Source: Candidatus Zhuqueibacterota bacterium (lineage in GTDB: Bacteria > Zhuqueibacterota > Zhuqueibacteria > Residuimicrobiales > Oceaniaggregativiventaceae). Taken from it: DNA of 36,997 nucleotides. The notes beneath the pieces were generated by a model, which was not told the origin of the DNA, ran no database searches, and saw nothing but the letters and a program-made list of their open reading frames with translations. The translations under genes were made by a program, and so were the position numbers. Positions 4,208 to 35,485 of this stretch are shown here, piece by piece (within the stretch, counting starts at the first letter, position 1; every line of letters begins with the position of its first letter). The stretch spans positions 1 through 36,997 of the forward strand of contig WJMF01000049.1 in NCBI GenBank assembly GCA_014728085.1, given 5' to 3'.

Positions 4208-4331
4208 CGAAACTCAATCGACAAGGGTCGATTACCATCTGCGTATAGATATTGAGAGCGGGGTATTTTGAGCTTATTTATAATACATTACAAAAAGAGA
4301 ACCAAATCACATCAACTATCAAGGAGAATTT

Positions 4332-5324
4332 ATGCTCGATACAACTGTCGAAGCATTGGACAGGGATAAAAAAAGCGTCATCACCAGCAATGGAGAGGTT
4401 AAATTCGATTCCCTGCTTATCGCCAGCGGGGCTACACCCCGCACTCTTGATGTGTCAGGGTCAGATCTTAACCAGGTCAAAACTCTGCGCTCGCTTGCGC
4501 AGGCGGATGAAATCATTAAAGTCAGTGAAAACGCAGAACATGTCGTCCTGGTCGGCGCCAGCTTTATCGCTATGGAAGCGGCGTTTAGTCTCAATTCGAG
4601 AGGTAAAGACGTCACCGTCATCGCGCCGGAATCGATACCCTTTGAACAACTCTTTGGACAGGATATCGGAAAATTGATTCAAAAACAACATGAAGATAAA
4701 GGGATCCAATTCAAGCTCGGACACGGTGTTAAAAAATTCAACGGCAATGGCAGCATAGAATCGGTGACTCTCGATAACGGGGAGAATATCGAGACTGATC
4801 TGGTTATTGTCGGTATCGGTGTCAAACCGGCGACAGAATTTGTTTCCGGCCTGGACATGGACGACGAGGGTGGTATCAGGGTTGATTCCTCTTTTCGCGC
4901 GGCAGAGAATATTTATGCGGCCGGAGATGTGGCGCTGTTCCCCTTTTCCCTCACCGGAGAATCAATTCGTATCGAACACTGGCGTACCGCAGAGCAGCAG
5001 GGACGTATTGCCGCCATCAATATGGCCGGCGGCAAGGCCACCTATGACAGCATGCCCTTCTTCTGGACCGCTCAGCCCAACTTAAAACTCGGCTATGTCG
5101 GCCATGCCAGAGAATGGGACGATATCATCGTTGACGGCAGTATAGAGGACAAATCCTTTATAGCTTTTTTCGTCAAAAATAACAAGGTCATTGCCGTGGC
5201 ATCGTCACAAAGGGCACAGGAATTTCTCTCCATCGAAGAACATATGCGCACCGGTAGCATGCCTAAGGTGGAAAAACTCGAAGGATATGATTGGCTGAAA
5301 AATATTCAGACAGCAGGTAAATGA
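4332..5324 (+). CDS. NAD(P)H-dependent flavin oxidoreductase lacking its N-terminal FAD-binding segment
   Basis: A 330-residue protein matching the C-terminal three quarters of AIF/rhodocoxin-reductase-type pyridine nucleotide-disulfide oxidoreductases. Present are the linker LLIASGATPRTL, the NAD-binding VGASFIAMEAAFSL (around residues 74-87), the second FAD-contact motif IYAAGDVALFP (D199) and the C-terminal dimer-type domain with WTAQPNLKLGYVG. Absent are the first GxGxxG FAD-binding motif, about 100 residues, and any Rieske domain that many relatives carry. Nothing resembling them is found in 4208-4331 in any frame. Yet AAGGAG at 4320-4325 sits at good distance from ATG 4332, so a protein could be made. 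Without the first Rossmann half it should not hold FAD normally. It is probably a truncated, non-functional gene. Confidence 0.8.
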   Translation: MLDTTVEALDRDKKSVITSNGEVKFDSLLIASGATPRTLDVSGSDLNQVKTLRSLAQADEIIKVSENAEHVVLVGASFIAMEAAFSLNSRGKDVTVIAPESIPFEQLFGQDIGKLIQKQHEDKGIQFKLGHGVKKFNGNGSIESVTLDNGENIETDLVIVGIGVKPATEFVSGLDMDDEGGIRVDSSFRAAENIYAAGDVALFPFSLTGESIRIEHWRTAEQQGRIAAINMAGGKATYDSMPFFWTAQPNLKLGYVGHAREWDDIIVDGSIEDKSFIAFFVKNNKVIAVASSQRAQEFLSIEEHMRTGSMPKVEKLEGYDWLKNIQTAGK

Positions 5325-18644: not shown

Positions 18645-21600
18645 ATGAATACTGCAATTCCGTCTCTTTTCTCGATTCGTAAATCATCAGCAATCTTTTT
18701 CTGTCTGATATTGCTTTTCTCTGTTTCCGCTTTTACACAACCGAGTTCGTATCTTTATGGCATTCACGATGCCGATCCGTCACCACAGGAGTTTCTCGAT
18801 CATCTCAACAGTGGTGAGGTCAGCGGTTGGGTGACGGCAACTGTTGCTATTGGAGATAACCCCGACGATTATGGCGGCTCTGATTTTACGGCGATTTCCG
18901 ATCAAGGTCATACCGTCATCTGTCGCCTGAATTACGGCTATTCCCCCAACGGAACCCTGCCGCCACCGGATCGTTATGACGAATTTGCCCAGCGCTGCGC
19001 CAATTTTGTCGCCGCCACACAGGGATGCTCCATTTTTATCATCGGCAATGAAACCAATCTGGCGCACGAGTGGCCCATCGTCAGCGGCAGACATCAATAT
19101 ATCTCCCCGCAAGACTATGCCGGCTGCTTTAACCAGTGCTATAGCGCCATTAAAACCGTCGCTCCGGAGGCTCAGGTGGTGACGCAGGCCCTGGCTCCCT
19201 TTGCCGGCCCCTACGGAGAAGGCGATATCAACGGTACACCTCACGATGCCAATCCATTGAACTGGGTCGATTATATGAACCAGATGCTCACCGCCATCGA
19301 ATCCAGCGGCAATGTCGACGGCATTGCTCTGCATATCAATTCCAGAGGGTACACTTGCGATAACATTCACAGTACGCAAAAAGTCAATGCCGCCGGCCAG
19401 GATCTCTATTTCAGTTTCTATGTTTACAAGGACTGGATAAATCATGGCATACCATCGAGCCTCTATGATTTGCCGCTTTACGCCACCGAGTGCAATGGCA
19501 TTTATTACTGGAAAGGCGGACACCCTGAAAATCCGGAGGCGCATTATGAATCCGGCTGGATCCAGGAAATCTATGCCGAAATCGATCGCTACAATCAACA
19601 GGCGATGACCGACGGCACCCCCCTCTTCAGATGTGTCAATCTATATCGATGGTGCCAGTGGTGCGACGACTGGAATATCGACGGCAATACCTATGAATCG
19701 CAGATGCTTGCCGATCTCGATCAGGCAGTTACCTATAAATACAGCTGGACGTCGGAAGGCCAGAATCCACCCTCTTCAGAACTGGTAAACGGTGACTTTG
19801 AAAACGGCGAACAGACAAATGGCATCGGCAATGGCTGGTCATCCTTTCAATCCACCGGCTATCCGGCTCTGTTTGAAATACAATCGGATCAGGTTGCCGG
19901 CGGAAGCTGGTCGCAAAAAATTATCTGCCCCCAGCCGCAAAGCAACTACAAATACGCCGGTGTTTATCAAGTCATTACCGTCACGCCGGGAGAAACCTAC
20001 GAAATCCAGGCGTCGAACCGGACTCAATTCGACGGTGGGGCGGCGTGGGATTATATTGCCCGTCTCGGTATCGACTTGACCGGTGGCAGCAACTTTGAAT
20101 CCGCTGATATCACATGGTATGAATTTAACTCTCAAAAAGATGTCTGGCACACATTGAACCAAACGGCGACAGCAACCCACAATTCCCTGACGATTTTTCT
20201 TCAGGTCTGGCGAAAATGGCCGGCCGACGGCGAGTCTTACGCCTGGTTCGATAATATCAGCATTGTGCCGGTAGCCGGACAAAACGCACCCCCTGTTGCT
20301 GCTTTTAATGCAAACCCTTCTACCGGTAATGCTCCGCTTACGGTCGATTTTGACGCCTCTGCATCATCCGATCCGGATGGTGATCCGCTGCTCTATACAT
20401 GGGATTTCGGCAACGGTAGCACCGCAAGCGGTGTAACCGCCTCCTGTACATACGAAAACGGCGGTACCTATACCGCAACACTCACTGTAGATGACCAGAA
20501 CGGTAATTCAGATGCGCAACAAGCAATTATAGAGGTTACAGAAACAAGCAACAACCTGATTGTAAACGGAGAGTTTAATGATCTGAATGGATGGACTTTA
20601 TGGCTGGAACGAGGTAATCTAACCCCGGTACTTGATAACGGCCGCGCCTGGTTAAAGAGCGAAGAACACAACGGCGGACTTTATCAGCAGTTTAACACCG
20701 GCGGTGCCGGCAACCAGTTGTCGGTATCCGGATTCTGGCAGAGCAATCCGACTCTGCAGGATTATCAATGGGCCGAGGTGATGATCATCAACAGCGACCG
20801 GCTTCCGGTGGACGGCCAGGATGTTTACGCAGGTCAGCCTGATGTTATAATGCTCTACAAAAATGACACCTGGACCACGTCATCCGGCTGGTCAGGCCAG
20901 ATGAGCGATACCGCGCCGGTATCCAATATCAGCTCATTTACCGCTGCTGCCGGTCAGGCCACCATCGTGTTGAAAAGCGGCAATCTGGGCCCCGCGCTTT
21001 CCGGCTGTATGTTCGACAATATTGCGGTTTCCCCGGCAGGTTCTTCGCCCGGAAATCAATTTCCCACAGCCCTCTTTTCAGCCACTCCGCAATCCGGTCG
21101 CGCACCGCTGGCGGTCACTCTGGATGCATCGGCATCCAGCGACCCTGACGGCGATGCTCTGACCTTTTCCTGGAACTTTGGCGACGGTAATCAGGGCACA
21201 GGTTCGCAATGCGTTCATACCTATCAGAGTGCCGGATCCTATTCCGTCACATTGACCGTCAATGACGGTCATGGTGGAACAGACCAGTCCAGTATATTAA
21301 TTTCCGTCACCCAACCGACAACCGGGCCTCTCGACTTTGCAGCTATTCGCGATTCGCTCAACCAGATCGGACTGGACTTGCAGTTTGTCAAAACCGGCTT
21401 TCACACTGCCGTTGGCGGTAATGCCCGCGGTATCGGAGACTATATGACCACGCTCGATCAGGCCGGCGTTCCGTTTTGTATCAAGAGTGTCGACGAGGCC
21501 GGCATCATACTGGAAGGCGCCATGATGCGCGAAAACAGCGGTGTACCGCATCAGCTGATCTACCGTCGCTGCGGTGACTATAATGGTTACTGGATGGATT

Positions 21601-24600
21601 GTCCCGATTACAACAAAACACCATACGATGCCGCCGTCGAACACTGGCAATATCACATGGACGTCTTCCCTCCTGAACTGCTCGATTATAAGCATCTCAT
21701 CTGGATCGAAACCGTCAATGAACTGAACAAACTGGCCTCCGACTGGATCGGTGAATTTTGCTATCACACCGCCCGGATGGCCATGGCCGAAGGATTCAGG
21801 TGGGCTGGCCCGAGCTGGTCGACCGGTGTTCCTGAATATGAACACTGGCTCGAACCGGGCATGATTCAGTTTTTACAACTGGCGGCGGACAATCCCGACC
21901 GCGTTTCCGTGGCATTGCACGAGTATAGCCTTTCACGAGATAATCTCGATAACATGTATCCACATCTGGTGGGACGCTTTCAGATGCTCTACCAAATTTG
22001 TGATTCTCTTGGCATTAATCGCCCCAAAATTCACATCACGGAATTCGGCTGGGACGGTGTCACTGTCGGTAACAGCATCGACCAGGCGATGAATGTCGAT
22101 ATCCCCTGGGCGGCAGAGCTGTATGGTAGCTACCGTAACGTCCTCAGTGCTGCCATCTGGTATCTCGGTCCCGGTTTCGGCGGTATCGCCGATCAGGCAC
22201 AAAAACTCATCGCCCCCATGACCGAGTATGCCACAAACACCTATTTCGTTATCCCGCTCGAGGAAAACAACATCAACCGGCCACCGGTGGCCGCACTCAA
22301 CGCTTACCCGACACAAGGCGTCGCACCCCTGACGGTCAATTTCGATGCCTCCGGATCGAGCGATCCCGACCAGGATCCATTAACGTTCAGCTGGGATTTC
22401 GGCGATCAAAATAGCGGAAACGGGCAGACGATTACGCATCAATTCGTTGATCAGGGCCTGTTTACCGTAACTCTGACCGTAAACGATGGTAATGGTCATA
22501 GCGATACCAGCCAGGTACAAATACATGTTCAGGATGAAGTTAATGATGATCCGGTTCTGGTGTTTACGGCCGATCCCACAGTTGGAGACGCTCCCCTGCA
22601 GGTTCAATTCGATGCATCGACTTGTTCGGATCCGGACGATGACCCGCTAACCTTTAGCTGGCACTTTGGAGACGGCGACTCCGCAACCACCGCTATCGTG
22701 AATCATACCTTTCAAGAAGAGGGTGTCTACACAACTCTTTTAGAAATCAGTGATAATCGCGGCGGCTCGGCGATTGACAGCGTTATCATTACGGTTAATC
22801 CAAACAGCCAGACAACCAACCTGATCGCCAACGGAACCTTTGAACAGGATCTCAATGGCTGGTCGACCTGGACGGAACGCGGAGCCCTGAATCTCTCGGT
22901 TCAAAATGGCAAGGCACACATTTCGAGCAGCAATCACAACGGAGGGCTTTATCAACAGTTCAGCACCGGCGGAGCAGGTACGGAAATCTATATCTCGGGA
23001 TTCTGGGCCAGCGCTCCGACACTGGCGGACGCACATTGGGGAGAGGTGCTGATCATCAACAGCGATCGCCTGCCCCAGAACGGTGTAGATTTAACCGGTC
23101 AGGAAAGCGACGTCAAGCTCATCTATAAAAATGATACCTTTGAAAGCAAAACCGGATGGAGCGGAAACCTCAGCCAAACCTCTTTAATATCAACGACCGG
23201 CGCGTTTATCGCCGATGGCGAGGTGGCCACCATTGTTCTAAAAAGCGGAAATGTTCCCGGTGCACTGACCGGATTGAAATTCGATAATATTCTGGTGGAA
23301 CCGGCAAGCTCCAATCCGGGCAACCACCATCCGGTGGCGTCTATTTCTGCTGCTCCGGTGAGCGGCAATGCCCCCCTGACGGTATCATTCGATGCTTCAG
23401 AGTCATCAGATCCGGATGGCGATGCCCTCACCGTTCACTGGGACTTTGGAGACGGCAATCAAAGCACAGAGTTGGCGACCGACCATACCTTTTCCGACCC
23501 GGGTGCCTACAATGTTGTCCTGACGGTTCATGACGGAAACGGTCTCTCTCACTCTAAAAGCACTACCATTAATGCTTATGATCCCACCAATCCTCCTGAT
23601 GACTGGGAACTTGTACTGGAAGAATACTGGGATACAATGGACGGCGATGATTGGTACGATCAGAACGTTGTGCAACAGGTCAGAAACGGCTGGACGCTGT
23701 GGAACAACAGCGGCCATAATCCCATCGGCAATCCCAACGGAGACGAACCCTGGAACGACTGGGGCATGTCGGAAACGCGCTTTGGCTGGGATGCGTTTTT
23801 GCCTCCACATGAATGGGATCTCTTTCTCAATGAGCGTGGATTCTGTTACAAGATCTTTGCCGGCTACCGTGCCTGGCATATCGAGCTCTCATCGCCGTCA
23901 ATCAGTCTTTCTCCGGGCACCTACCGGGTGACGCTGCACTATCACTGCGACTCGTACGTCGACTATCAGGACGGCAAAATACCTCCCGGCTGGCCGCAAG
24001 CCTTCCAGGCAAGGGTCAACCTGGCGAACCAGGAAGGAGAATGGCAAAACGCAGAATATTTAAGCGACAACACCGTGGTTAAAGAGTTCTATATCGGCCA
24101 GAGCGGAGACTATCCGGTGAGTTTTGAAATGCGCAATCCGTGGGCGATCAGAAATGGTTGTGCTTTTTGCAAGTACTTTGTTCTGGAAAAATCGACCGGG
24201 CAAAACACGGTGCCGCTTACGTATGAATTCAACCAACCGGGGTGGTACATGATTTCCGTTCCCGGCAACAGGAATGATATGACGGTTTCGTCGCTCTTTC
24301 CGGACGCACAGAACGGAACCGCCCTCTATTATTATATCGAGGATAACGACTATCTGGAGGTTCAAACGCTTGAACCCGGCAAGGCATACTGGATTTATAT
24401 TCAACAGCCGGTAAGCTATTCTTTCGACGTCACCCCGGTTCAGCATATCTTTTATCACTTTACCCGTCCGGGCTGGTATATGGTCGGCTGTCTTATCGAT
24501 GGTATTGATTATAACAATATCGTCGTCAATCCCGTGGACGGTGTTGTAACGCCTTTTTTGGCATACAACAACGAAAATTTTACCTATACGCCGTCGTCTC

Positions 24601-25064: not shown

Positions 25065-25133
25065 TTTCATCGTTGATCGGTGGTGTGATGGTTTATGTCT
25101 TGAATCAGGAGTTGTATTAAAAGCAAAATAACC

Positions 25134-25162
25134 TTGCTAATCTGGATGAAAAAGTGTAAAAT
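25134..25162 (+). promoter_or_regulatory. Sigma70-like promoter of the lipoprotein gene
   Basis: TTGCTA (25134-25139), 17-nt spacer, TAAAAT (25157-25162), 40 nt before the start codon. The same arrangement is conserved in the diverged copy at 30619-30647, which supports its being functional. Confidence 0.65.
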
Positions 25163-25202
25163 TTTTATCAAAAAGATTGATGAACTATTTTGGTGAGGTA
25201 AA

Positions 25203-25673
25203 ATGAAACGGAAAACCACTCTCAGTGCACTGGGAATCATCTTTTTAGCCTTCTTTTTAACCTCCTGTGCGCCGAACAATGACATGTATCTTGCCAAACC
25301 AGCCGGATTCTGGGCCGGTCTATGGCACGGACTGATCATCATTATAACCTTTGTCATCAGTCTTTTTAGCGACAGCGTCGCCGTTTATGAGATTCACAAC
25401 AACGGCGGCTGGTATAACTTTGGCTTTGTTCTCGGCATTCTTGTCTCGCTGGGACACGGTGGTATCTGGCATCCGGTCAAACATAAACCCCGCTCAAAGA
25501 GTCAGAAAGAAAAAGAGTGGGAAGAAATCGGTGTCAAAGTGGAAGAAAAGGTCAAGAAAGGCATCCAAAACTGGCTCGATGAAGAGGACAAAGAAAAAAG
25601 CGAATGGCAGGAAATTGCCAAAAAAGTAGAAGAAAAAATCAAACGCGAACTGAGAAACTGGGCGGAAAAATAG
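25203..25673 (+). CDS. Small lipoprotein with membrane segment and charged coiled-coil tail
   Basis: A 156-residue protein with a lipobox FLTSC (lipidated Cys22), then AKPAGFWAGLWHGLI and a hydrophobic stretch IIIITFVISLFSDSVAVYEI, NNGGWYNFGFVLGILVSLGHGG, and a strongly charged tail (about 95-156). The tail holds two related blocks, EWEEIGVKVEEKVKKGIQNW and EWQEIAKKVEEKIKRELRNW, probably coiled coil. The PAGFWAGLWHG...NNGGWYNFGF core occurs in small uncharacterised proteins of many FCB bacteria. TGAGGT precedes the ATG. Its promoter and leader are duplicated at 30.6 kb. Confidence 0.8.
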   Translation: MKRKTTLSALGIIFLAFFLTSCAPNNDMYLAKPAGFWAGLWHGLIIIITFVISLFSDSVAVYEIHNNGGWYNFGFVLGILVSLGHGGIWHPVKHKPRSKSQKEKEWEEIGVKVEEKVKKGIQNWLDEEDKEKSEWQEIAKKVEEKIKRELRNWAEK

Positions 25674-25736: not shown

Positions 25737-26358
25737 ATGTATCCGGAGGAGTTGGATAACGATGTAGCGCTCTTATCCGATATCGCTGATTATGTACATA
25801 CCAACCATCCCCGGATAAAATTCGCCACTACACTTACGCTTACTTACGGCATAGAGAAAATGAAGATCTGGCACAAATGGATTTTCCGGTATATTGTCGG
25901 TAACCTGCTGGCCGTTACATTTCGATTTTACCGTCACGCCGACCGTACTCGACGATATCGATGATAAAATCGCTGCATGGCAAAAAGCTGCTGATGACAA
26001 GCCGGTTATTATCAAAAAAGCAGGTCTGCCCACCTCTCTTCGGTCAAACAACTCCGAACCGCTGCAGGCACAATTTGTTAAAGCGTTGTTTCTCCAAAGC
26101 AAAAGGATTGTTCAAACTCTGTCTTCTTCGAAACCTCTCTGCGGCCACCCCTTTTTTTTCTGTAAAAAACAATACTTTAAAAAAAACTGGCTTTATTGGC
26201 TTAAAGAGGGGCCAAATCATTTCGCACAATTCACTGCCAACAGCCGGAATACATTGGACATCACATTTGAGTTTTCTTATCCAATGTCATTTCTATATCC
26301 GGGTTGCCGTTCGAGTGCACTCTGCCTGGAAACGTGCAACCAATGCGAGATAAAATAG
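25737..26358 (+). pseudogene. Remnant of a glycoside-hydrolase-like gene, frameshifted and truncated
   Basis: Frame 3 from 25737 reads DIADYVHTNHPRIKFATTLT, which resembles the helix and strand before the catalytic strands of a TIM-barrel hydrolase. A shift to frame 1 near 25890 continues with WPLHFDFTVTP, then DDKIAAWQKAADDKPVIIKK and GLPTSLRSNNSEPLQAQFVK. This resembles the strand-7 Glu motif region (usually PVLLQEVGYPSS...SEE-QA-FV) of uncharacterised glycosidase-like proteins, with Lys where Glu is expected. After about 26090 the frame degrades and the C-terminus is not recognisable. No start or upstream half is left. Dead gene, by the frameshift, lost residue and truncation. Confidence 0.55.
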
Positions 26359-26570: not shown

Positions 26571-28892
26571 ATGAAAAGAGCTGTGTTGGTATCTGTTTTC
26601 GTCATTGTAACCGCAACATCCGTTTTTGCACAATTGCTGCAACATCAAATTTTACCGAATCAAACCGACAGCGAAATCAACGGCAATAATCCCGCACACC
26701 ATATTTATATCAACAAAGGCGTTGCCGCACTGGATAAACTGCTGCTTTTCTTTCCGGGCACTACCGGCACACCACGGGATTACCGCCTCTTTCAACGAAC
26801 CGCTGCGAATATGGGGTATCACGTTATCGGTTTGAGCTATGAGAATCTGGCATCGATCAATATTAATATTTGTCCCCGTACTTATGATAGCACCTGTCAC
26901 GGCCGTGCAAGATATGAAATCTGGTTTGGGGAGGATCAGCACCCCGCAATAGAGATATCACCTGCCAATTCGATACTGAACCGGCTGCTCAGGTTGTTGC
27001 AATATCTGCAAACAACTTATCCCGAGGAAAATTGGCAGCAGTTTCTCGACGGCTCTGTCATCAAATGGGAACGGATCGTTACCGCAGGCCATTCTCAGGG
27101 AGGCGGACATGCCGCCTTTGCAGCGAAATTATTTCCGGTAAACCGGGTCATCATGATATCCTGGACCGACTGGGCTCAACCGGGTAAAACCGCCTCCTGG
27201 ATCAGAGAGCCGGGCGTGACTCCGGATAGCGCCTATTTTGGCTTTATTCACACCGGAGATACCTGGATTTATGCCAAAATTCCAATCACCTGGTCTGATT
27301 TCCATATGCTCCAATTTGGCCCGATTGTGAATATCGATACCACAACCTCGCCATATCTCAATTCACATTCCCTGATTACGAGTGTGCCTATAGATACGGT
27401 CATGACCCAGGCCAACTTTCACAATGCAACCTGTGTCGACTGGGTCACGCCGATCGATCAAACCGCGAAAACGCCTCTGTTGCAACCGCTGTGGCAATAT
27501 CTTTTGGGCAAGGTTACCACCATTGACCCAAATGCACTCAGGATTTCACCTGAAGGCGCGAGTTATATCGATCCGGAACTGTTGAGCATAGACGATAAAC
27601 TGGCCTTTCAGAGCAGCGGCGGCACGGTTTATCTGAGCGACATCGATCCGCACACCGGTGCATTTGTCTCTGCCAGCGGCAAGGATCTGCTCATCGATAC
27701 CGGCGCCACCCCGTTGATCCATTCCTTCAACGGACCCGAGTTTGGTATCGATGCAAAGGGCTGGTCGCTCTTTTATACCAAAGACAACGGCGGTACACCA
27801 CAAATCTGGCGCGCTGATGTAAATGGATCCGATGTTACGCGAACCGCCCTGACCACCGGTCTCCTGCCAAAGCTCTCTACTCTGGCCTCCAAAGACGTCA
27901 CCGCCAACAGCATAAAATTGCTCTTTTCCAGAGGCGCGGTTCTTAAAACCGGTGTGGTCTGCTGGATCGATGAAGATCAACCGGAACGCGAAATCGTTGT
28001 CGACAGCATCGATACCGGAACCCGATGGGTAGATTCGAGCAACAGCTTTTTCTACGTCAAACAAACCGGTAAAAACGCCGGCCAGCTTTTTCTTTATCAT
28101 ACCGGGGAGATGACGGAAAAAAGGATTACCGATGATCCCGACCGCAAAAGCTACAGCTATGGCTGGTTTGCACCGGAATACGACGAACTGCTGGTTCTGG
28201 CGGTACTGAGCGATACGGCGATTGCGATATACCGCGATCATGGCGCAGAGTTTTGGCAAAAAATCGCCACCCTTACCGCGCCGCCCTCCTCTGAATACAA
28301 ATACATCGGATCGCCTGAACCTTTTGTTGCCGCCGGTAAATCCTATATCAGTTTTGTCTGCAAGAAATCGGCATCATCGAGTCAGTATGTCGATGCAGAG
28401 GTATGGGTCAGCGGCATTGAAACCGACAACAATACCCGTTTTATCAAACGCTGTGATTCGGGCTTGCCAAATACCATCCGAACCGATCCGGAGAGTTATA
28501 TTGGCGCAGATCAGGTCTTTATTTATTACAACGTTGTGACTGCAGCAGGAACCTTTGAAATCTGGCGCTATGCCAGCGGCATCTTAACCGCACAAACCGA
28601 TGTCAAAGGGGATCAGGTCGTTGTACCCGATGGATTTGCCCTGAAACAGAATTATCCCAATCCGTTTAATCCGGCAACGGTAATCGAATTCAACCTACCC
28701 GAAGCGTCTCAAATCGAGTTGAAAATATATGACCTCCTGGGACGGAAGGTCGCGACCCTTGTCGATACAGAGCTACAGGCGGGACGATACAAAAAGCGAT
28801 TCAATGCAGAAAACCTGGCAAACGGCCTCTATATCTACAGGCTCTCCAGTCCCTATGGAGAGCTGAGCAAAAAAATGCTTTATATAAAATAA
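26571..28892 (+). CDS. Secreted alpha/beta hydrolase (BPSS1187-like) with beta-propeller region and T9SS sorting domain
   Basis: A 773-residue exported protein. Signal peptide 1-20. Residues 25-315 are an alpha/beta hydrolase: LLLFFPGTTGTPRDYR (oxyanion-side loop), nucleophile elbow AGHSQGGGHAA (Ser175), with HNATCVDW near 285 as a possible catalytic His region. Residues 320-675 look like TolB/WD40-type propeller blades (SSGGTVYLSDIDP, GWSLFYTKDNGGTPQIWRAD, NSFFYVKQTGKNAGQLF). The C-terminus is a T9SS domain (KQNYPNPFNPATVIEF, ANGLYIYRL, KKMLYIK). The closest named family is the BPSS1187-type serine hydrolase group; substrate unknown. GTCAGGA lies 5 nt before the ATG. Confidence 0.83.
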   Translation: MKRAVLVSVFVIVTATSVFAQLLQHQILPNQTDSEINGNNPAHHIYINKGVAALDKLLLFFPGTTGTPRDYRLFQRTAANMGYHVIGLSYENLASININICPRTYDSTCHGRARYEIWFGEDQHPAIEISPANSILNRLLRLLQYLQTTYPEENWQQFLDGSVIKWERIVTAGHSQGGGHAAFAAKLFPVNRVIMISWTDWAQPGKTASWIREPGVTPDSAYFGFIHTGDTWIYAKIPITWSDFHMLQFGPIVNIDTTTSPYLNSHSLITSVPIDTVMTQANFHNATCVDWVTPIDQTAKTPLLQPLWQYLLGKVTTIDPNALRISPEGASYIDPELLSIDDKLAFQSSGGTVYLSDIDPHTGAFVSASGKDLLIDTGATPLIHSFNGPEFGIDAKGWSLFYTKDNGGTPQIWRADVNGSDVTRTALTTGLLPKLSTLASKDVTANSIKLLFSRGAVLKTGVVCWIDEDQPEREIVVDSIDTGTRWVDSSNSFFYVKQTGKNAGQLFLYHTGEMTEKRITDDPDRKSYSYGWFAPEYDELLVLAVLSDTAIAIYRDHGAEFWQKIATLTAPPSSEYKYIGSPEPFVAAGKSYISFVCKKSASSSQYVDAEVWVSGIETDNNTRFIKRCDSGLPNTIRTDPESYIGADQVFIYYNVVTAAGTFEIWRYASGILTAQTDVKGDQVVVPDGFALKQNYPNPFNPATVIEFNLPEASQIELKIYDLLGRKVATLVDTELQAGRYKKRFNAENLANGLYIYRLSSPYGELSKKMLYIK

Positions 28893-28945
28893 AATGCATT
28901 GCAGATTTACAGTTGAAGCAAAGATGTCGTATAAAAAGAGAAACA

Positions 28946-29260
28946 ATGGAAAAAATTTTGCACCCCCAGAAACTCGGCCTCTTCAAATCGCTTTTCATTT
29001 TCAGGTCCATATCTCTACTCCTGATCCTGGAAACCCGATTTCTGATCCCCTGGCTCGCTCGAATAACCGGCCTCGAGCCGGTGGTGTTCTGGTTCATCGT
29101 TGCCGGGCTCGGACTTTTTTCCCCTCTGCTGCTCTTGTCCCGGATATACCTCAAAGCGGAGGGACAAAAATACGACAGACAAACCTGGAAACAAAGATTG
29201 CGATTCAGCGACAATATAGATATTCATCTATATCAAAAACAAACGCTGCTACAAGCATAA
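28946..29260 (+). pseudogene. Truncated CPBP membrane protease, duplicate copy 1
   Basis: From ATG 28946 this encodes the N-terminal ~85 residues of the CPBP protease found whole at 31110, with mostly identical residues through ITGLEPVVFWFIVAGLGLF and LKAEGQK. After LRFS the frame joins sequence that corresponds to the spacer behind the complete copy (GATATTCA...CAAGCATAA). So about 470 bp carrying all three catalytic motifs were deleted, including the EExxxR, FxxxH and HxxxN blocks. It cannot be an active protease. The stop lies 12 nt before the hydrolase start. Confidence 0.85.
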
Positions 29261-29272
29261 AGAGGAATGAAC

Positions 29273-30376
29273 ATGATAAGAATCAATACGCATTGCTTCA
29301 CCTCACAGCGACTGCTGCTGACTGCTGTGATCATCATGATGGCGCTATCCGGCGGCGATGCACGGAATAACAAGAAAGAACAATCCCTTTACGCTGTCGG
29401 CTACAAGGTCATCGATATCGATTATCAAAAGAACGGCCATGCGCAAACGCTTACCGTGGCGGTATGGTATCCGACAGCAGAACAGCCTTCATCGCACCAC
29501 TACGGCGGCCCCACACGCGGAAACGTGGCGGTAAACGCTGAACCGCTCGACAGGGATAGAGCCTGTCCGTTCCTGCTCTTCTCACATGGATTCGGCGGCA
29601 GCGGTATTGCCGCTGTCTTTTTGACCGAAAAGCTGGCGGCCCGGGGCTGGATTGTCGCGGCCCCGGATCATCACGACAGCCATTCTGCGGTGCGCATTCA
29701 CAAGGGTATGAACAAATTCGACCGGCGTGGATTTTTCAAAGCAGCTAAAGCGATCGGTTCCTCCTCCCCGCAGGAGCGGCAGCAGTATCTCTACCGTCTC
29801 GATGAGATGCAGCTGGCTCTGGACGGCATGTTAAAGCACGCTCTGTTCGGACGATACATCGATGCGGAAAAAATTGCTGTCGGCGGTCACTCTTTCGGGG
29901 GATTTACCGCCATGGGATTATGCGGCACCATAGCGGAACGACACGATGAGCGCATTCGGGCGGTGCTGTTGTATTCTACAGGGGCAGCCGGCTATTTATA
30001 TACGGAAGAAGAGTTGCAAGACGTAGAAATCCCCTCCATGCTCTTTATGGGGGAACGTGAAAGAAAACAAAAAAGAGGCGATAAAACCATGGCAGAGCTG
30101 TCGGACAAAATCTACAGCAGCCTGGCGGTGCCCAAATATTTTGCCGAGGTCCGGGGAGGCACCCATCTGTCATTTAACAACCGCTTTAGCAACAGACCCG
30201 GAGCCCGCCTGATGAGCGGAAACGAGAAACAGTATGCGGTCATTCGTACCTACTCGATCGCCTTTTTACATAAATATGTTGATGATGATCATAATGCCGA
30301 CAAGGTATTGCAGCAGAACCATGCCATGCTAACGCGCTATGTTAAAGAGACCAAAAGCGACCAAATGGAACGGTGA
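29273..30376 (+). CDS. Exported alpha/beta hydrolase (PAF-acetylhydrolase/dienelactone-hydrolase-like)
   Basis: A 367-residue protein. ATG 29273 is chosen over 29267 because AGAGG then has 7-nt spacing and because only this ATG is kept in the duplicate at 31903. Residues 1-32 are a signal segment (LLLTAVIIMMALSGGDA). The hydrolase core has CPFLLFSHGFGG, WIVAAPDHHDSH, nucleophile elbow GGHSFGGFTA (Ser207) and GGTHLSF (His298). These fit lipases and PAF-acetylhydrolase-type esterases that act on small or oxidised esters. The last codons (MER, stop) lie at a deletion junction with a scrap of another gene. It is the intact partner of the stump at 31903-32077. Confidence 0.85.
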   Translation: MIRINTHCFTSQRLLLTAVIIMMALSGGDARNNKKEQSLYAVGYKVIDIDYQKNGHAQTLTVAVWYPTAEQPSSHHYGGPTRGNVAVNAEPLDRDRACPFLLFSHGFGGSGIAAVFLTEKLAARGWIVAAPDHHDSHSAVRIHKGMNKFDRRGFFKAAKAIGSSSPQERQQYLYRLDEMQLALDGMLKHALFGRYIDAEKIAVGGHSFGGFTAMGLCGTIAERHDERIRAVLLYSTGAAGYLYTEEELQDVEIPSMLFMGERERKQKRGDKTMAELSDKIYSSLAVPKYFAEVRGGTHLSFNNRFSNRPGARLMSGNEKQYAVIRTYSIAFLHKYVDDDHNADKVLQQNHAMLTRYVKETKSDQMER

Positions 30377-30480
30377 TCACCGGTGGCGGTTATGGCGGCA
30401 ATGGCCACAGTTTGTGTATCCCCCGGCGCTGCGTCAATGGGACCGCAGGAAGGCATAAAGCGGCGATCCTGGGGCAAGTG
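30373..30480 (-). pseudogene. 108-bp fragment of the T9SS gene at 32258-35485
   Basis: Read on the minus strand it gives LPQDRRFMPSCGPIDAAPGD and VAIAAITATGDHR, matching the internal part of the 1075-residue T9SS protein encoded at about 34275-34383. By eye there are about ten mismatches over about 107 bases. It has the same orientation relative to the hydrolase as the full gene has to the hydrolase stump, so it is the leftover of a duplicated T9SS gene after a deletion that fused it to the hydrolase end. Confidence 0.85.
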
Positions 30481-30618
30481 TCGGGCGTCAACCCTATCCT
30501 GGTCTCTGAGCTTTGTAAAAACACAAATTACCGCATATACATACGACGCACACCGTTTGTGCAAATTTCATATGAAATCCATGCCAGATTAAGCTCTGAC
30601 GACTTTTTAAAAATTAAC

Positions 30619-30738
30619 TTGCTTATCTGCCTGAAAAAGTGTAAAATTTTCACCAAAAGCATTCATTAATCATTATGGTGAGGCAAAATGAAACGAAAAT
30701 CTATTCTAATTTCTCCATCGATCGATTTACAAGCTTGA
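30619..30738 (+). pseudogene. Duplicate promoter and leader of the lipoprotein gene with a 16-residue truncated ORF
   Basis: TTGCTT (30619-30624), 17-nt spacer, TAAAAT (30642-30647), then GGTGAGGCAAAATG with ATG at 30688. The leader matches 25134-25203 at most positions. The ORF starts MKRKS like the lipoprotein (MKRKT) but stops after 16 codons, with no lipobox. The promoter is intact, so it may still drive transcription toward the protease gene at 31110. Confidence 0.75.
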
Positions 30739-30842
30739 GTAAAACAAATGCGGTATATTAAATGAGGAGAATTTTCCGATAGGTTTTTACCTGGATAGTG
30801 ATTATCTTTTCACTCGAAATGATAAAAATCAAGCAGGGCAAA

Positions 30843-31100
30843 ATGGTAAAGCCGTTGAAAAAATATCTGGCCGATCAGTTAAAAGAAAACAAACAAAAAA
30901 ATCTCCTACAGAAATCCCGGGGCAATTTTTCAGATCAATTCCGAATTTTTACAAAAATTAAAAGATATTAAACGGGACCCTGCACTCCTGTCCGGTGACT
31001 TGCACAAGCTTATCGACTATACGGCAGAAAAACTCTGTGAAGAGATTCAAAAAATAAATCAATACAATATGGTTTTTATTTTACCTAGATATTTCGAGCA
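30843..31100 (+). pseudogene. Decayed small gene of unknown family
   Basis: ATG 30843 opens MVKPLKKYLADQLKENKQK, then a frame change leads to SYRNPGAIFQINSEFLQKLK, DIKRDPALLSGDLHKLIDY and TAEKLCEEIQKIN, after which the frame runs into the start of the protease gene. The helical, charged composition is protein-like in two adjacent frames, which suggests one frameshifted gene of about 85 residues. I do not recognise the family, and it has no match in the equivalent place of copy 1. Confidence 0.4.
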
Positions 31101-31109
31101 GAGAGATAA

Positions 31110-31835
31110 ATGGAGGAAACTTTCTTGCAACCCAAAAAACTCGGCCTGTCCAAATCGCTGTTCATTTTTGGCTCCCTGTCTTTGCTGTTGATCCTGGAGA
31201 CTCGCTTTATCATCCCCTGGCTCGCTCGAATAACCGGCCTCGAGCCGGTGGTGTTCTGGTTCATCGTTGCCGGCCTCGGACTCTTTTTCCCTCTGCTGAT
31301 TTTGTCCCTTATTTTCCTCAAAGCTGAGGGACAAAAAATCGACAAAGAAACCTGGACCGGTCGATTGCGATTCAGGCAAATGAACCGCATGGACTGGCTC
31401 TGGAGTCTCGGAGCAGTTGTGGTCATTGGGATTCTGAGCGTAATTATTCTCAATGGTCTTAAACTGATAACCGGCCATGTTGAGAATCATCCCCCCTTTA
31501 TGGCTTATGAACCGCTCACCCCGGATCGTTACTGGATACTGTTGATATGGTTTCCCTACTGGCTGTTCAATATCATGGGAGAAGAGATATTCTGGCGCGG
31601 CGTGCTTTTGCCCGGACAGGAGCTCGCCTTTGGCAAAAATACCTGGATCATTCACGGCTTTTGCTGGGCCATTTTTCATATCGCCTTTGGCTGGAAAATG
31701 TTGCTGATCATGTTGCCCATCCTGTTCATCCAGTCTTTTGTCGTTCAGAAACGCAAAAACAGCTGGACAGGCGTGGTCATCCATGCGCTGGTAAACGGCC
31801 CCGGTTTTCTGGCTATCTCTTTTGGTTGGTTGTAA
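31110..31835 (+). CDS. CPBP family intramembrane metalloprotease, intact copy
   Basis: A 241-residue integral membrane protein of the CAAX-protease/bacteriocin-processing (CPBP) family with about six to seven membrane helices. The three catalytic motifs are present: MGEEIFWRG (E158, E159 and R163), FCWAIFHIAFG (H190) and VVIHALVNG (H225, N229). Function in this organism is unknown; the family processes membrane proteins or gives resistance to bacteriocins. GAGAGA precedes the ATG. It is the intact twin of 28946-29260 and shares a stretch of about 59 identical bases with it. Confidence 0.92.
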   Translation: MEETFLQPKKLGLSKSLFIFGSLSLLLILETRFIIPWLARITGLEPVVFWFIVAGLGLFFPLLILSLIFLKAEGQKIDKETWTGRLRFRQMNRMDWLWSLGAVVVIGILSVIILNGLKLITGHVENHPPFMAYEPLTPDRYWILLIWFPYWLFNIMGEEIFWRGVLLPGQELAFGKNTWIIHGFCWAIFHIAFGWKMLLIMLPILFIQSFVVQKRKNSWTGVVIHALVNGPGFLAISFGWL

Positions 31836-31902
31836 AATCGTAGACTATTGATATTCACATGTATCAGAAAAAACCCTGCGACAAGCATTAAGAGAAATCA
31901 AC

Positions 31903-32077
31903 ATGATAACGATCAATACTCAACGCTTCATGTCACAGTGACCGCTGCTGACCGCTGTGATAATAATGATTGCGCTATCCGGCAGCGAGGCAACAGGGGC
32001 ATACCATGCTGTCGCGTTATTTAAAGCAAACCGAAACAGAACGCTCTGATGACGGTAAAAAGCGTTTGGGGAATTGA
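31903..32077 (+). pseudogene. Stump of the exported alpha/beta hydrolase, duplicate copy 2
   Basis: ATG 31903 begins MITINTQRFMSQ and hits TGA where the intact gene has CGA (Arg). Beyond it the signal-segment codons remain (PLLTAVIIMIALSGSEA), then about 1 kb is missing, and the sequence resumes with the last residues (AMLTRYVKET in the intact copy, MLSRYLKQTETERSDD here). The C-terminus ends GN at 32077. It is the reciprocal loss to the protease copy 1 truncation. Confidence 0.85.
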
Positions 32078-32150
32078 TACCCTATAACCTTTCTTTCAGG
32101 AAATTTACCTAACCTGGTAGATTTTTATTGGGCGCAAAAACAGTATAAAG

Positions 32151-32257: not shown

Positions 32258-35200
32258 TCAGGGCAAAAGAACCATCTTTTTGTGCAGAATTTGATCGCCA
32301 ACCGTCAAACGGGCAAAATAGATACCGGCGGCGCAAAAGGCGCCCTCTTTTGTTTTTCCGTTCCAGACCTCGATATAGTGCCCCGCCACTCGTTGTCCAT
32401 CGACAAGGGTGGTGATATACTGTCCCAGCGCATTATAAATCTCGATTTTCATCCGTGCCGATGTGGCCAGGCGATAAAAGAGCTGTGTTGAGCGGTTGAA
32501 CGGATTGGGATAGTTTTGAAACAAGCGACTGGCGGCAGATTGCTCTGCCAGAGCCGGATCCTCAATCCGGTTGAGATAGTAAATTCCGAACGTATGGTCA
32601 TCCTTTTTGGCATAGACCCAGCCATCTTTTATGAACAGCGGCCCGGTTACGTTCCTCAGTACCGCTTGTATTTTCGGGTCATAGGGATCTGTAACATCAT
32701 AAAAAGTCAGTTGCTTGTCTATGATTGTCAGCACATTCTCCTGCAGCGAATAAGATAGCCATGGCATATAAAGTGTTTTAACCAAACCAGGAGGTTGTTG
32801 CGGATGGTGCAGATCCAGGGCATAAAGCTCAACCATTGATTTACCATAGAGACCCCCTTGTGGGCGCGTTTTGATTAGAAAGACATAACCGCCGTTAGCG
32901 ACGAGATATACGTTGGCAAACGGGTGCACCACCACCGTCGCTTTTTCGCCCTGGTCATCAATCTCTTCGATAACGACTTTTGTTGTTTGGATTGTACCGG
33001 TCGGACTTTTTCGTGCATAGACGATATAAGGATATACAAACATGAGACGGGAATTTACAGACTCTTCATACTGATACGCTTTCAAAAGAGAAGGTTCGGA
33101 CAGACTCTTCAGCGAATAAAGTAAAAGTTTGTCATTGCACTGATAGGCATATAACAGCCCGCCGCTCACCCCCAGGCGTGTGCATTCCCTCGTCAATTCA
33201 ATCTCATTAACCTTGCTCGCCTCTCTTCCATCAACATGATAAATATCTATCCGGCTGATCCACTCTTCATCCTGCCGGCCATAGAGAGAACAGTAGAAAT
33301 AATCACCCATGGCTGTCATGGCGGTGACGCGTAGAGAATCAAAATCCACTTTATCGAGATAAACCGGTAAAGAGGGATCACTCCTGTCATAATAATAAAG
33401 GTACGATCCATACATAGAGCCGGTTTGAACAAAAACATGTTTGTCTGTTGCAAATATTCTATCTATCGAATGCTGATCCTCGGGAATGGGAATGGAATTG
33501 ACCGCAAACGATGCATTCCAAAGGGAAAAATCAGCCAGCGATAGCGTACCCAGATCACTAAAGGTCTCAAAAATTCCATCAAAAGCGGAGACGCGATAGC
33601 GATAGAGCGAATCCGGCTGCAAAAAATGGCTGCCGTCGAACGGAAACCGGGTTTTTTCGCTTTCATAAAACGGCTCCTGTTGTCCCTGCCAATAAAACCG
33701 GTAAACAAGGGGATCGTTATCCGCATCAGCAGCAGCTGACCAGGTAAAAGTCGTTTCCGGTTTTTTCAGTATTACACCATCTGCAGGTGTATCGAGTTGC
33801 GGCGGTGTGGGTTTGTGATTGATGATCAGATCACTGAACCGGCTGCGTGCAATCACATTGCGATTTTCGGGATCGCTGGCCAGAGTAGCCGCCGACGTTA
33901 TGCCCACCCTCCCGGCGGCTTTGTCTTCTTCAATGGTGCCGTTGAGATAGAGAAGCGTATTCGAACCGGGCAGGCAGGGTGCAGCAAAATCAATATCAAT
34001 GCGGTAACTATTGTCACCGAGGTGTTGAAAATCAATCATTGCATCTTGCTCTTTTATAGCAGGCGTCACTCCCGTAAAGGCCATTCCTTCTGTTTCAAGC
34101 CGCAGGGAAAACGACACCGTCTGCAGCGGAAACAAATTGGAGAGCCGGACCGGCAGGGAAAAAGTTCGATCCAGCGGATCGACTGCCATAGGAGCGCTGT
34201 GAACGACCCCGGTAGAGTGATAGACCAGGTGAGCCAGATCGCAGGTCTCTTTCAAGCGAACAATTTCCTCAAAACGATGATCGCCGGTGGCGGTTATGGC
34301 GGCAATGGCCACGATTTGTGTATCCCCCGGCGCTGCATCAAAGGGACCGCAGGAAAGCATGAAACGGCGATCTTGAGGCAAGGTTTGTTCCAGCCAGCCG
34401 CTTTGGGTATAGGGATCACCGCTAAAAGCCCACCGTGATTGCTTACCGGTAATGGGATTGATCAGAGGATTGCCATCATAATCCAGTCCCTGCAGCCGGC
34501 GATAAGCGGCGGTAGCAAGATCCACATCCGGTAGACGATTGGGTACGAATTCCTGCCATTGACGAGGGCCGTGCTTATAAACGGGCGGTGAAAATATCCC
34601 GCAGCTCCGGAAACCGGTTTTTATGTTCTGTTTATAGCAAACTGTATCGCCGGCCGACGGCACGACGGCGGCTTGCACCAGGGCATAGCCCATGGACCGG
34701 TGTTCTTCCCCAATAATGGATTCCATAGCGCTATAGGCACCGTTATAAGCAAAAACCAAATTAAGCAGGCTATCGCTACCGACCTGATCATTCGCAGGAT
34801 CGACGAGCTCACAATCGGCAAAAATACCGATATAGGCGTTATGCCAATGGTTGTCGCTTTTGTTGATGATATCCCATTCAATAAAAACGATATCATCAAG
34901 AATTTCCAAACCAAATGTTTTCATGTGAATCTCGGCGCCGAGCGGATCGGTATGACCCAGGGTGTGCCCGATGGGCAGTGGGTACGCATCGGTAAAAGTG
35001 CAATAGAGCATCTGATCGCCGATAATCGATGGCGTGCCGTCCGCCTTGACGGGTGCGCCCTGCCAGGCGGGCCAGTCGCGATAATCCGGGTTATCCGCCT
35101 CTGTATCTCCGCGGTTGATCTTATAGATGCGAAAGGTAGGATCGTCCTTGCCGAGCGGCCGCCCGTTTTCATCGATCATTCCGGCAAGCGCATCCGATTC

Positions 35201-35485
35201 AAACTGATTGACCATGACCCGAATCGAGTCATCGATTTCCGCGCCCAGGATCAAACCGCTGGTTAAAGCCAGGACCGGTCCGGAAGGCTTGAGCAAAAAT
35301 CCGTCATGCTCTTCCCTGTCGGCAAAGCGGCCATTATTTCCAACATACATGAGCAGATTATTGGCGTCAAAAGCCTTGTATTCGGTAATGGCAGCGTTTT
35401 GTCCGGATTTGACACCGCTCTCTTTTGGTATGGCTGCGATCAAACCGATACAGATCAACACAAAAGGTAAAATTGTTCTTTTCAT
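32258..35485 (-). CDS. Large secreted protein with FN3-like and propeller regions and T9SS sorting domain
   Basis: A 1075-residue exported protein. Signal peptide 1-18 (RTILPFVLICIGLIAAI). Residues 25-470 form a domain rich in FDANNLLMYVGNNGRF, DIVFIEWDIINKSDNHW and YIGIFADCELVDPAND; this type is common at the start of large FCB surface proteins and has no assigned function. Residues 470-555 form a cohesin-like beta domain (VSFSLRLETEGMAFTGV, TLLYLNGTIEED). An FN3-like domain follows (about 557-655, PTPPQLDTPADG, LYRYRVSAFDG). Residues 670-960 are repeat strands of propeller (LVIVD-type) character. The T9SS domain starts near 987 (FQNYPNPFNRSTQLFY, closing AAGIYFARLTVGD and KKMVLLP). AGAGGT lies upstream of the ATG. 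An internal piece is duplicated at 30373-30480. Confidence 0.83.
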   Translation of the reverse strand: MKRTILPFVLICIGLIAAIPKESGVKSGQNAAITEYKAFDANNLLMYVGNNGRFADREEHDGFLLKPSGPVLALTSGLILGAEIDDSIRVMVNQFESDALAGMIDENGRPLGKDDPTFRIYKINRGDTEADNPDYRDWPAWQGAPVKADGTPSIIGDQMLYCTFTDAYPLPIGHTLGHTDPLGAEIHMKTFGLEILDDIVFIEWDIINKSDNHWHNAYIGIFADCELVDPANDQVGSDSLLNLVFAYNGAYSAMESIIGEEHRSMGYALVQAAVVPSAGDTVCYKQNIKTGFRSCGIFSPPVYKHGPRQWQEFVPNRLPDVDLATAAYRRLQGLDYDGNPLINPITGKQSRWAFSGDPYTQSGWLEQTLPQDRRFMLSCGPFDAAPGDTQIVAIAAITATGDHRFEEIVRLKETCDLAHLVYHSTGVVHSAPMAVDPLDRTFSLPVRLSNLFPLQTVSFSLRLETEGMAFTGVTPAIKEQDAMIDFQHLGDNSYRIDIDFAAPCLPGSNTLLYLNGTIEEDKAAGRVGITSAATLASDPENRNVIARSRFSDLIINHKPTPPQLDTPADGVILKKPETTFTWSAAADADNDPLVYRFYWQGQQEPFYESEKTRFPFDGSHFLQPDSLYRYRVSAFDGIFETFSDLGTLSLADFSLWNASFAVNSIPIPEDQHSIDRIFATDKHVFVQTGSMYGSYLYYYDRSDPSLPVYLDKVDFDSLRVTAMTAMGDYFYCSLYGRQDEEWISRIDIYHVDGREASKVNEIELTRECTRLGVSGGLLYAYQCNDKLLLYSLKSLSEPSLLKAYQYEESVNSRLMFVYPYIVYARKSPTGTIQTTKVVIEEIDDQGEKATVVVHPFANVYLVANGGYVFLIKTRPQGGLYGKSMVELYALDLHHPQQPPGLVKTLYMPWLSYSLQENVLTIIDKQLTFYDVTDPYDPKIQAVLRNVTGPLFIKDGWVYAKKDDHTFGIYYLNRIEDPALAEQSAASRLFQNYPNPFNRSTQLFYRLATSARMKIEIYNALGQYITTLVDGQRVAGHYIEVWNGKTKEGAFCAAGIYFARLTVGDQILHKKMVLLP

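Follow-up and report, generated by a model that had tools for sequence, protein, structure and literature searches.

The window analysed here is one whole contig (C158; WJMF01000049.1, 36,997 bases) from the draft genome of a Candidatus Zhuqueibacterota bacterium (5.19 Mb in 244 contigs, 97.9% complete, estimated contamination 0.03%). It contains no N bases and has a G+C content of 48%. Between positions 28946 and 32078, a gene for a CPBP/Rce1-like protease followed by a gene for an exported alpha/beta hydrolase is present in two copies that agree in order and orientation. The copies are referred to as P1 and H1 in the left unit (unit A) and as P2 and H2 in the right unit (unit B). P1 is truncated and H1 intact, P2 is intact and H2 reduced to a stump, and between the two pairs lie fragments of two further genes, one for a small lipoprotein-like product and one for a secreted protein of the type IX secretion system (T9SS). 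The best explanation of the locus, and probably the right one, is tandem duplication of a multi-gene segment followed by reciprocal gene loss.

Protease and hydrolase copies

The original prediction had proposed that the protease–hydrolase pair is present twice, and a nucleotide alignment of the two copies bore this out: positions 28937-29208 aligned with 31102-31375 (82.5% identity over 275 columns, E 4e-77) and 29215-29362 with 31846-31992 (82.4% over 148 columns, E 1e-38). Intergenic sequence and the stop/start junction are part of the aligned stretch, and the homology thus extends beyond the protein motifs; the outcome that the original prediction had named as refuting, similarity in these motifs only, did not occur. 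A search of the whole 5.19 Mb genome yielded no third copy of the protease or the hydrolase.

P1 (28946-29260, + strand) shares 78-80% amino acid identity with residues 3-88/90 of P2. Its truncation had been recognised correctly; its length had been given as 85 residues and is better described as about 88 homologous residues, followed by about 16 out-of-family residues that stem from intergenic sequence, the frame remaining open to codon 104 and stopping 6 nt ahead of the start of H1. About 470 nt of copy 2 (31376-31845) are missing from P1, the catalytic part and all catalytic motifs that mark Rce1-like/CPBP proteins are deleted, and no Pfam match was obtained, matches being judged against the gathering score cutoffs here and below. 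P2 (31110-31835, + strand; 241 amino acids) is full length and matched PF02517 with 46.6 bits (cutoff 22.4), an ordinary score for a member of that family; the motifs EExxxR, (W)xxxH and HxxxN are all present in its translation as GEEIFWRG, WAIFH and HALVN.

Relatives were taken from 82 genomes of the phylum, a number that includes the source genome; none of the others is of the same genus. In the protease tree P1 and P2 were placed as sisters (support 99/98), with a longer branch for P1 (0.29, against about 0 for P2), and this placement makes the duplication younger than the split from the other genera sampled. A tract of 62 nt in P1 (29045-29106, + strand) is identical to P2 (31212-31273), and a run as long as this arose in 1 of 20000 column permutations. 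The tract probably reflects gene conversion between P1 and P2, as would fit copies lying in tandem; purifying selection was rejected as its cause, since the third codon positions of relatives are no more conserved there than elsewhere.

H1 (29267-30376, + strand; 369 amino acids) is an intact exported alpha/beta hydrolase of the platelet-activating factor (PAF)-acetylhydrolase/PETase-like type, as judged from Pfam. It matched PF03403 (44.2, cutoff 20) and PF12740 (29, cutoff 28) as an ordinary member by score, is full length and carries the nucleophile elbow GGHSFGG, the GHSxGG core being kept in H1 and 8 homologues. The stump H2 (31897-32078, + strand) consists of about 30 N-terminal codons, a deletion and a 3′ tail. 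A nonsense codon, TGA, stands at 31939-31941, where copy 1 has CGA, and the equivalent of about 29363-30312 is absent; this deletion of about 950 nt (first estimated at about 1 kb) is not a multiple of 3, and in copy 1 the deleted segment is flanked on both sides by GCA. The tail is recognisable from the alignment of 30320-30356 with 32000-32036 (79% over 38 columns; score reached in 0 of 2000 dinucleotide shuffles). It lies out of frame, and its translation MLSRYLKQTE matches the C-terminal MLTRY motif of the hydrolase family. The intact state of H1 and P2 and the reduction of H2 were thus found as described in the original prediction, which had further held that the ancestral order was inverted to hydrolase-then-protease. 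Nothing is inverted: both copies read protease-then-hydrolase, and the order of the surviving genes is set by which copy of each was lost.

Relics of neighbouring genes

At the very end of H1, in unit A, begins a 110-nt relic of a T9SS gene (30369-30478, − strand), which corresponds roughly to codons 369-404 in the intact copy and is 90% identical to 34273-34382. The relic is joined to H1 in such a way that it supplies the last hydrolase codons and the stop codon. Its 11 differences from the intact gene fall at third codon positions in 8 cases, with 0.37 synonymous (dS) and 0.04 non-synonymous (dN) substitutions per site. The intact gene in unit B (32258-35485, − strand) encodes a secreted protein of 1075 amino acids with a T9SS-type C-terminal domain (sub-cutoff Por_Secre_tail/FlgD_ig matches); family homologues in relatives are up to 43% identical to the product over part of its length.

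The second relic, in unit B, comprises the promoter and start of a lipoprotein gene (30610-30707, + strand) and is 80.6% identical over 98 nt to its intact counterpart in unit A (25125-25222, + strand). Its ATG is found at 30688, and the frame closes soon after. The counterpart is the promoter/5′ region of an intact small lipoprotein-like gene of 156 amino acids (25203-25673, + strand), the start of which is duplicated; homologues of the product are 68% (G003) and 63% (G002) identical within the same family and 67-68% identical (G014 and G005) within the same order. A promoter-like TTGCTA-17-TAAAAT arrangement lies at 25134-25162, the frequency of such sites being not above chance. Both relics had one other match in the genome only, at the respective intact gene. 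An origin as dispersed repeats or mobile elements was rejected on these single matches and on the lack of a transposase among the open reading frames of the window scanned with Pfam.

In total, five blocks are repeated (lipoprotein start, protease 5′ part, hydrolase 5′ part, hydrolase 3′ tail and T9SS piece), all of them direct and colinear. From left to right, unit A holds the lipoprotein gene, a T9SS-sorted hydrolase gene, the protease stump, the hydrolase and the T9SS relic; unit B holds the lipoprotein relic, the protease, the hydrolase stump and the T9SS gene. The genes lost differ between the copies, with protease and T9SS gene broken in A and hydrolase and lipoprotein gene broken in B. 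Since the relics stand in the position and orientation expected of a longer tandem unit, that unit was larger than the protease–hydrolase pair. The original prediction of tandem duplication with complementary decay stands as the best explanation, has firmer support than the pair by itself could give, and has to be widened from the pair to a unit that spans at least the stretch from the lipoprotein gene to the T9SS gene, that is, at least four genes and probably five.

The probable fifth gene (26571-28892, + strand; unit A) encodes a secreted, alpha/beta hydrolase-like protein of 773 amino acids with a T9SS C-terminal sorting domain (Por_Secre_tail above cutoff, Abhydrolase_6 weak). It is flanked on both sides by duplicated blocks, a position from which it probably belonged to the duplicated unit, its B copy having been deleted completely. 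Between it and the lipoprotein gene, two overlapping open frames (25737-26358, + strand; about 75 and 154 amino acids) resemble shifted pieces of one larger gene. They had no Pfam match above cutoff and are probably a further gene remnant within the unit.

The debris between the lipoprotein relic and P2 (30708-31101) had no match in the window or the rest of the source genome, nor in 59 further genomes, and the stretch 30479-31100 has a G+C content of 35%. A frameshifted coding remnant was seen at about 30840-31068 (+ strand; KMVKPLKKYLADQLKENKQ... / EFLQKLKDIKRDPALLSGDLHKLIDYTAEKLCEEIQK), with no Pfam match above cutoff and no relative in its own or the 59 other genomes.

Two observations were made elsewhere in the window. 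In a pyridine nucleotide-disulphide oxidoreductase frame (4284-5321, + strand) the Pfam profile was matched only from position 66 on, which may mean that its N-terminal portion has been lost or lies in another frame. A PKD-rich T9SS protein of 2141 amino acids contains a 64% internal repeat (20667-21222 and 22935-23490, + strand), a duplication at the domain level.

Occurrence in other genomes

At E ≤ 1e-30 the protease was present in 14 of the 82 phylum genomes (the source genome and 13 others), as a single copy in the relatives that have it; single-copy homologues 54-62% identical to P2 were found in G026, G079, G054, G052 and G001. Damaged forms were seen in two relatives. In G077 (L049 9604-9903, − strand; match weaker than E 1e-30) the catalytic part is removed by an internal deletion, and in G040 (L045 9822-10550, − strand) the gene has an in-frame stop and has lost one motif glutamate. 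This independent damage indicates that the gene decays readily in the phylum.

The hydrolase was found in none of the other genomes among the 82, as would be expected if it arrived once and was then duplicated. Homologues 54-60% identical occur in unrelated metagenome-assembled genomes (MAGs) labelled Deltaproteobacteria, Armatimonadetes, Betaproteobacteria, Fermentibacteria, Lentisphaerae, Desulfobulbus, Planctomycetota and Desulfobacteraceae, and this patchy distribution suggests lateral transfer. The Betaproteobacteria MAG carries an intact hydrolase (L024 5001-6104) as well as a closely similar stump (L030, about 4350-4580), which is cut off by a stop near query residue 108 and is an independent decayed second copy.

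That each function is kept exactly once, as had been claimed, is true of the genes. It does not imply that either gene is needed: with the protease present in 14 and the hydrolase in 1 of the 82 genomes, and the protease damaged in two, general essentiality of protease and hydrolase appears unlikely. A single-copy pair in related genomes, for which the original prediction had suggested looking, did not turn up: within the flanking sequence covered, none of 14 protease loci and none of 8 hydrolase loci elsewhere showed a protease–hydrolase pair, and neither an intact pair nor synteny was seen in any other genome searched. No same-genus genome was among them, and this absence is therefore little guide to the recent ancestor; the putative ancestral pair is a reconstruction for which only the two copies were used. 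Compared with the known members of PF02517 and of PF03403/PF12740, P2 and H1 are ordinary, and their adjacency was found in this genome only.

Origin of the locus and comparison with known systems

In-register codon comparison of P1 with P2 gave dS 0.45 and dN/dS 0.26, or dS 0.67 and dN/dS 0.24 outside the identical tract, and the N-terminal part of H1/H2 gave dS 0.33 on few sites. Synonymous differences per site amounted to 21.5/64 for the protease, 5.5/20.5 for the hydrolase and 8/27.3 for the T9SS gene; this similar synonymous divergence makes the blocks compatible in age. As the divergence is mostly synonymous, it arose mainly while the copies encoded constrained proteins, and the deletions came later. 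The divergence of about 18% thus reflects either a long divergence of intact copies in place or one unit that came from a diverged relative; in both cases the decay is late.

Under tandem duplication with reciprocal loss, the starting point would have been a segment of about 9 kb with the lipoprotein gene, the T9SS-sorted alpha/beta hydrolase, the CPBP protease, the exported hydrolase and, on the opposite strand, the gene of the T9SS secreted protein. This segment would have been duplicated in tandem by a single event in this lineage, and both copies would have remained functional long enough for synonymous divergence to build up and for a small gene conversion to occur at least once. Later, large deletions would have taken out redundant gene copies, namely protease and T9SS gene from unit A and lipoprotein gene, T9SS hydrolase and exported hydrolase from unit B; the two junctions that were examined show little homology or none. 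Because different genes were lost from each copy, the order of the survivors is now permuted without inversion, to lipoprotein, T9SS hydrolase, exported hydrolase, protease and T9SS gene. If selection acts on the retained genes and they are needed, recombination could no longer collapse the duplication without the loss of one of them.

Several observations weigh against this history. No relic of the 773-amino-acid gene was detected in unit B (no counterpart in 30357-31110, none in 30708-31101 by blastn or tblastx), and the stretches 30479-30609 and 30708-31101 find no explanation in the unit scheme. The dS values of about 0.35-0.67 are high, since tandem copies as a rule either collapse or become homogenised. 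The ancestral order was not seen independently, no close relative with an intact single unit being among the genomes.

The main rival, less likely on balance, is that the second unit came from a related species, as a homologous segment with a divergence of about 15-20%, and integrated beside the native one, the same reciprocal deletions following. A dS of 0.45 (0.67 outside the tract) with dN/dS of 0.24-0.26 is what separately evolving functional orthologues show, the third-position bias of the T9SS relic (8 of 11) points the same way, and tandem copies are normally unstable (PMC7055797). On the other hand, the G+C content at third codon positions overlaps between the units and leaves no mark of foreign composition, though this is a weak test; P1 and P2 group as sisters, and the genomes compared yielded no donor. 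A literature search on juxtaposed xenologues yielded nothing pertinent. Both origins end in the same reciprocal decay.

Duplication of the protease–hydrolase pair alone, with the T9SS and lipoprotein fragments as separate small local duplications or debris, is improbable. The relics are indeed short (110 and 98 nt), that of the lipoprotein gene is mainly promoter, unexplained debris surrounds them, and overall divergence is lower in the T9SS relic, at 90% identity. Their position and orientation are nevertheless those that a longer unit predicts, each has its one other genome match, and at synonymous sites the T9SS relic and the protease have, within the small samples, diverged to a similar degree.

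It is more doubtful still that P1 is a retained small membrane protein, serving for example in translational coupling of H1, and not debris. Its frame has stayed open over 104 codons up to 6 nt from the H1 start, and dN/dS against P2 is low (0.24-0.26), a value that can date from before the truncation; against retention speak the roughly 16 extra residues of intergenic origin, the longer P1 branch and the damage to the same gene in G077 and G040, which looks like plain decay. An assembly artefact, in which alleles of two metagenome strains were joined in tandem, would be conceivable for a whole contig of a 244-contig draft and is very improbable, given a window without N and the low estimated contamination, an 18% difference with complementary deletions that leaves neither copy as an intact allele, and fragments of both neighbours lying colinearly between the copies, which a chimera is not expected to produce; deletions and relics together would call for two independently damaged strains.

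Reciprocal loss of duplicates between homologous segments is known as fractionation after segmental or whole-genome duplication. The reciprocal loss at this locus is alike; here, however, the segments are adjacent on one molecule and comprise about five genes. In animal mitochondria, tandem duplication-random loss (TDRL, also duplication-random loss, DRL; PMC3283314, PMC5745709) similarly gives a tandem copy, one loss per gene, a permuted order and relics in between, whereas the present locus lies on a bacterial chromosome and its relics diverged mostly synonymously before they decayed.

For bacteria, the SNAP model (Selection during Niche Adaptation; Brandis and Hughes 2020, PMC7055797) describes a path of gene-order change by duplication and loss. 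According to that paper, natural isolates show duplications with early inactivation, direct empirical evidence for SNAP-caused rearrangements in modern species is still lacking, and a search for intermediates, i.e. pseudogenes with matching active copies, is advised. In a follow-up on the ribosomal operon cluster (PMC8046335), segmental duplication with asymmetrical loss was likewise put forward as the probable cause of the rearrangements there, the steps being not demonstrable. As in the model, a segment is duplicated here, different genes are inactivated in each copy, the duplication would be locked in if the surviving genes are needed, and a new order results without inversion or transposition. 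Unlike in the model, the unit is small (about 9 kb), none of its genes is known to be essential, no selected gene was identified, and a long divergence preceded the decay where the model foresees rapid loss.

The individual genes at the locus are ordinary, and the process itself, duplication and loss as in the SNAP model, is already known; the locus is a good candidate for a natural intermediate of it. That it represents a half-finished natural change of gene order through tandem duplication and reciprocal loss of about five genes, locked by complementary deletions and of the intermediate type named as missing in the SNAP paper, is an evenly balanced proposition. Rearrangements by duplication and loss leave no trace of their origin once completed, and intermediates with readable relics are the most direct evidence for them as against inversion or transposition. 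The late decay seen here suggests that gene loss can begin long after duplication, or after a diverged homologous segment has arrived, and a process that is rapid throughout would not account for this.

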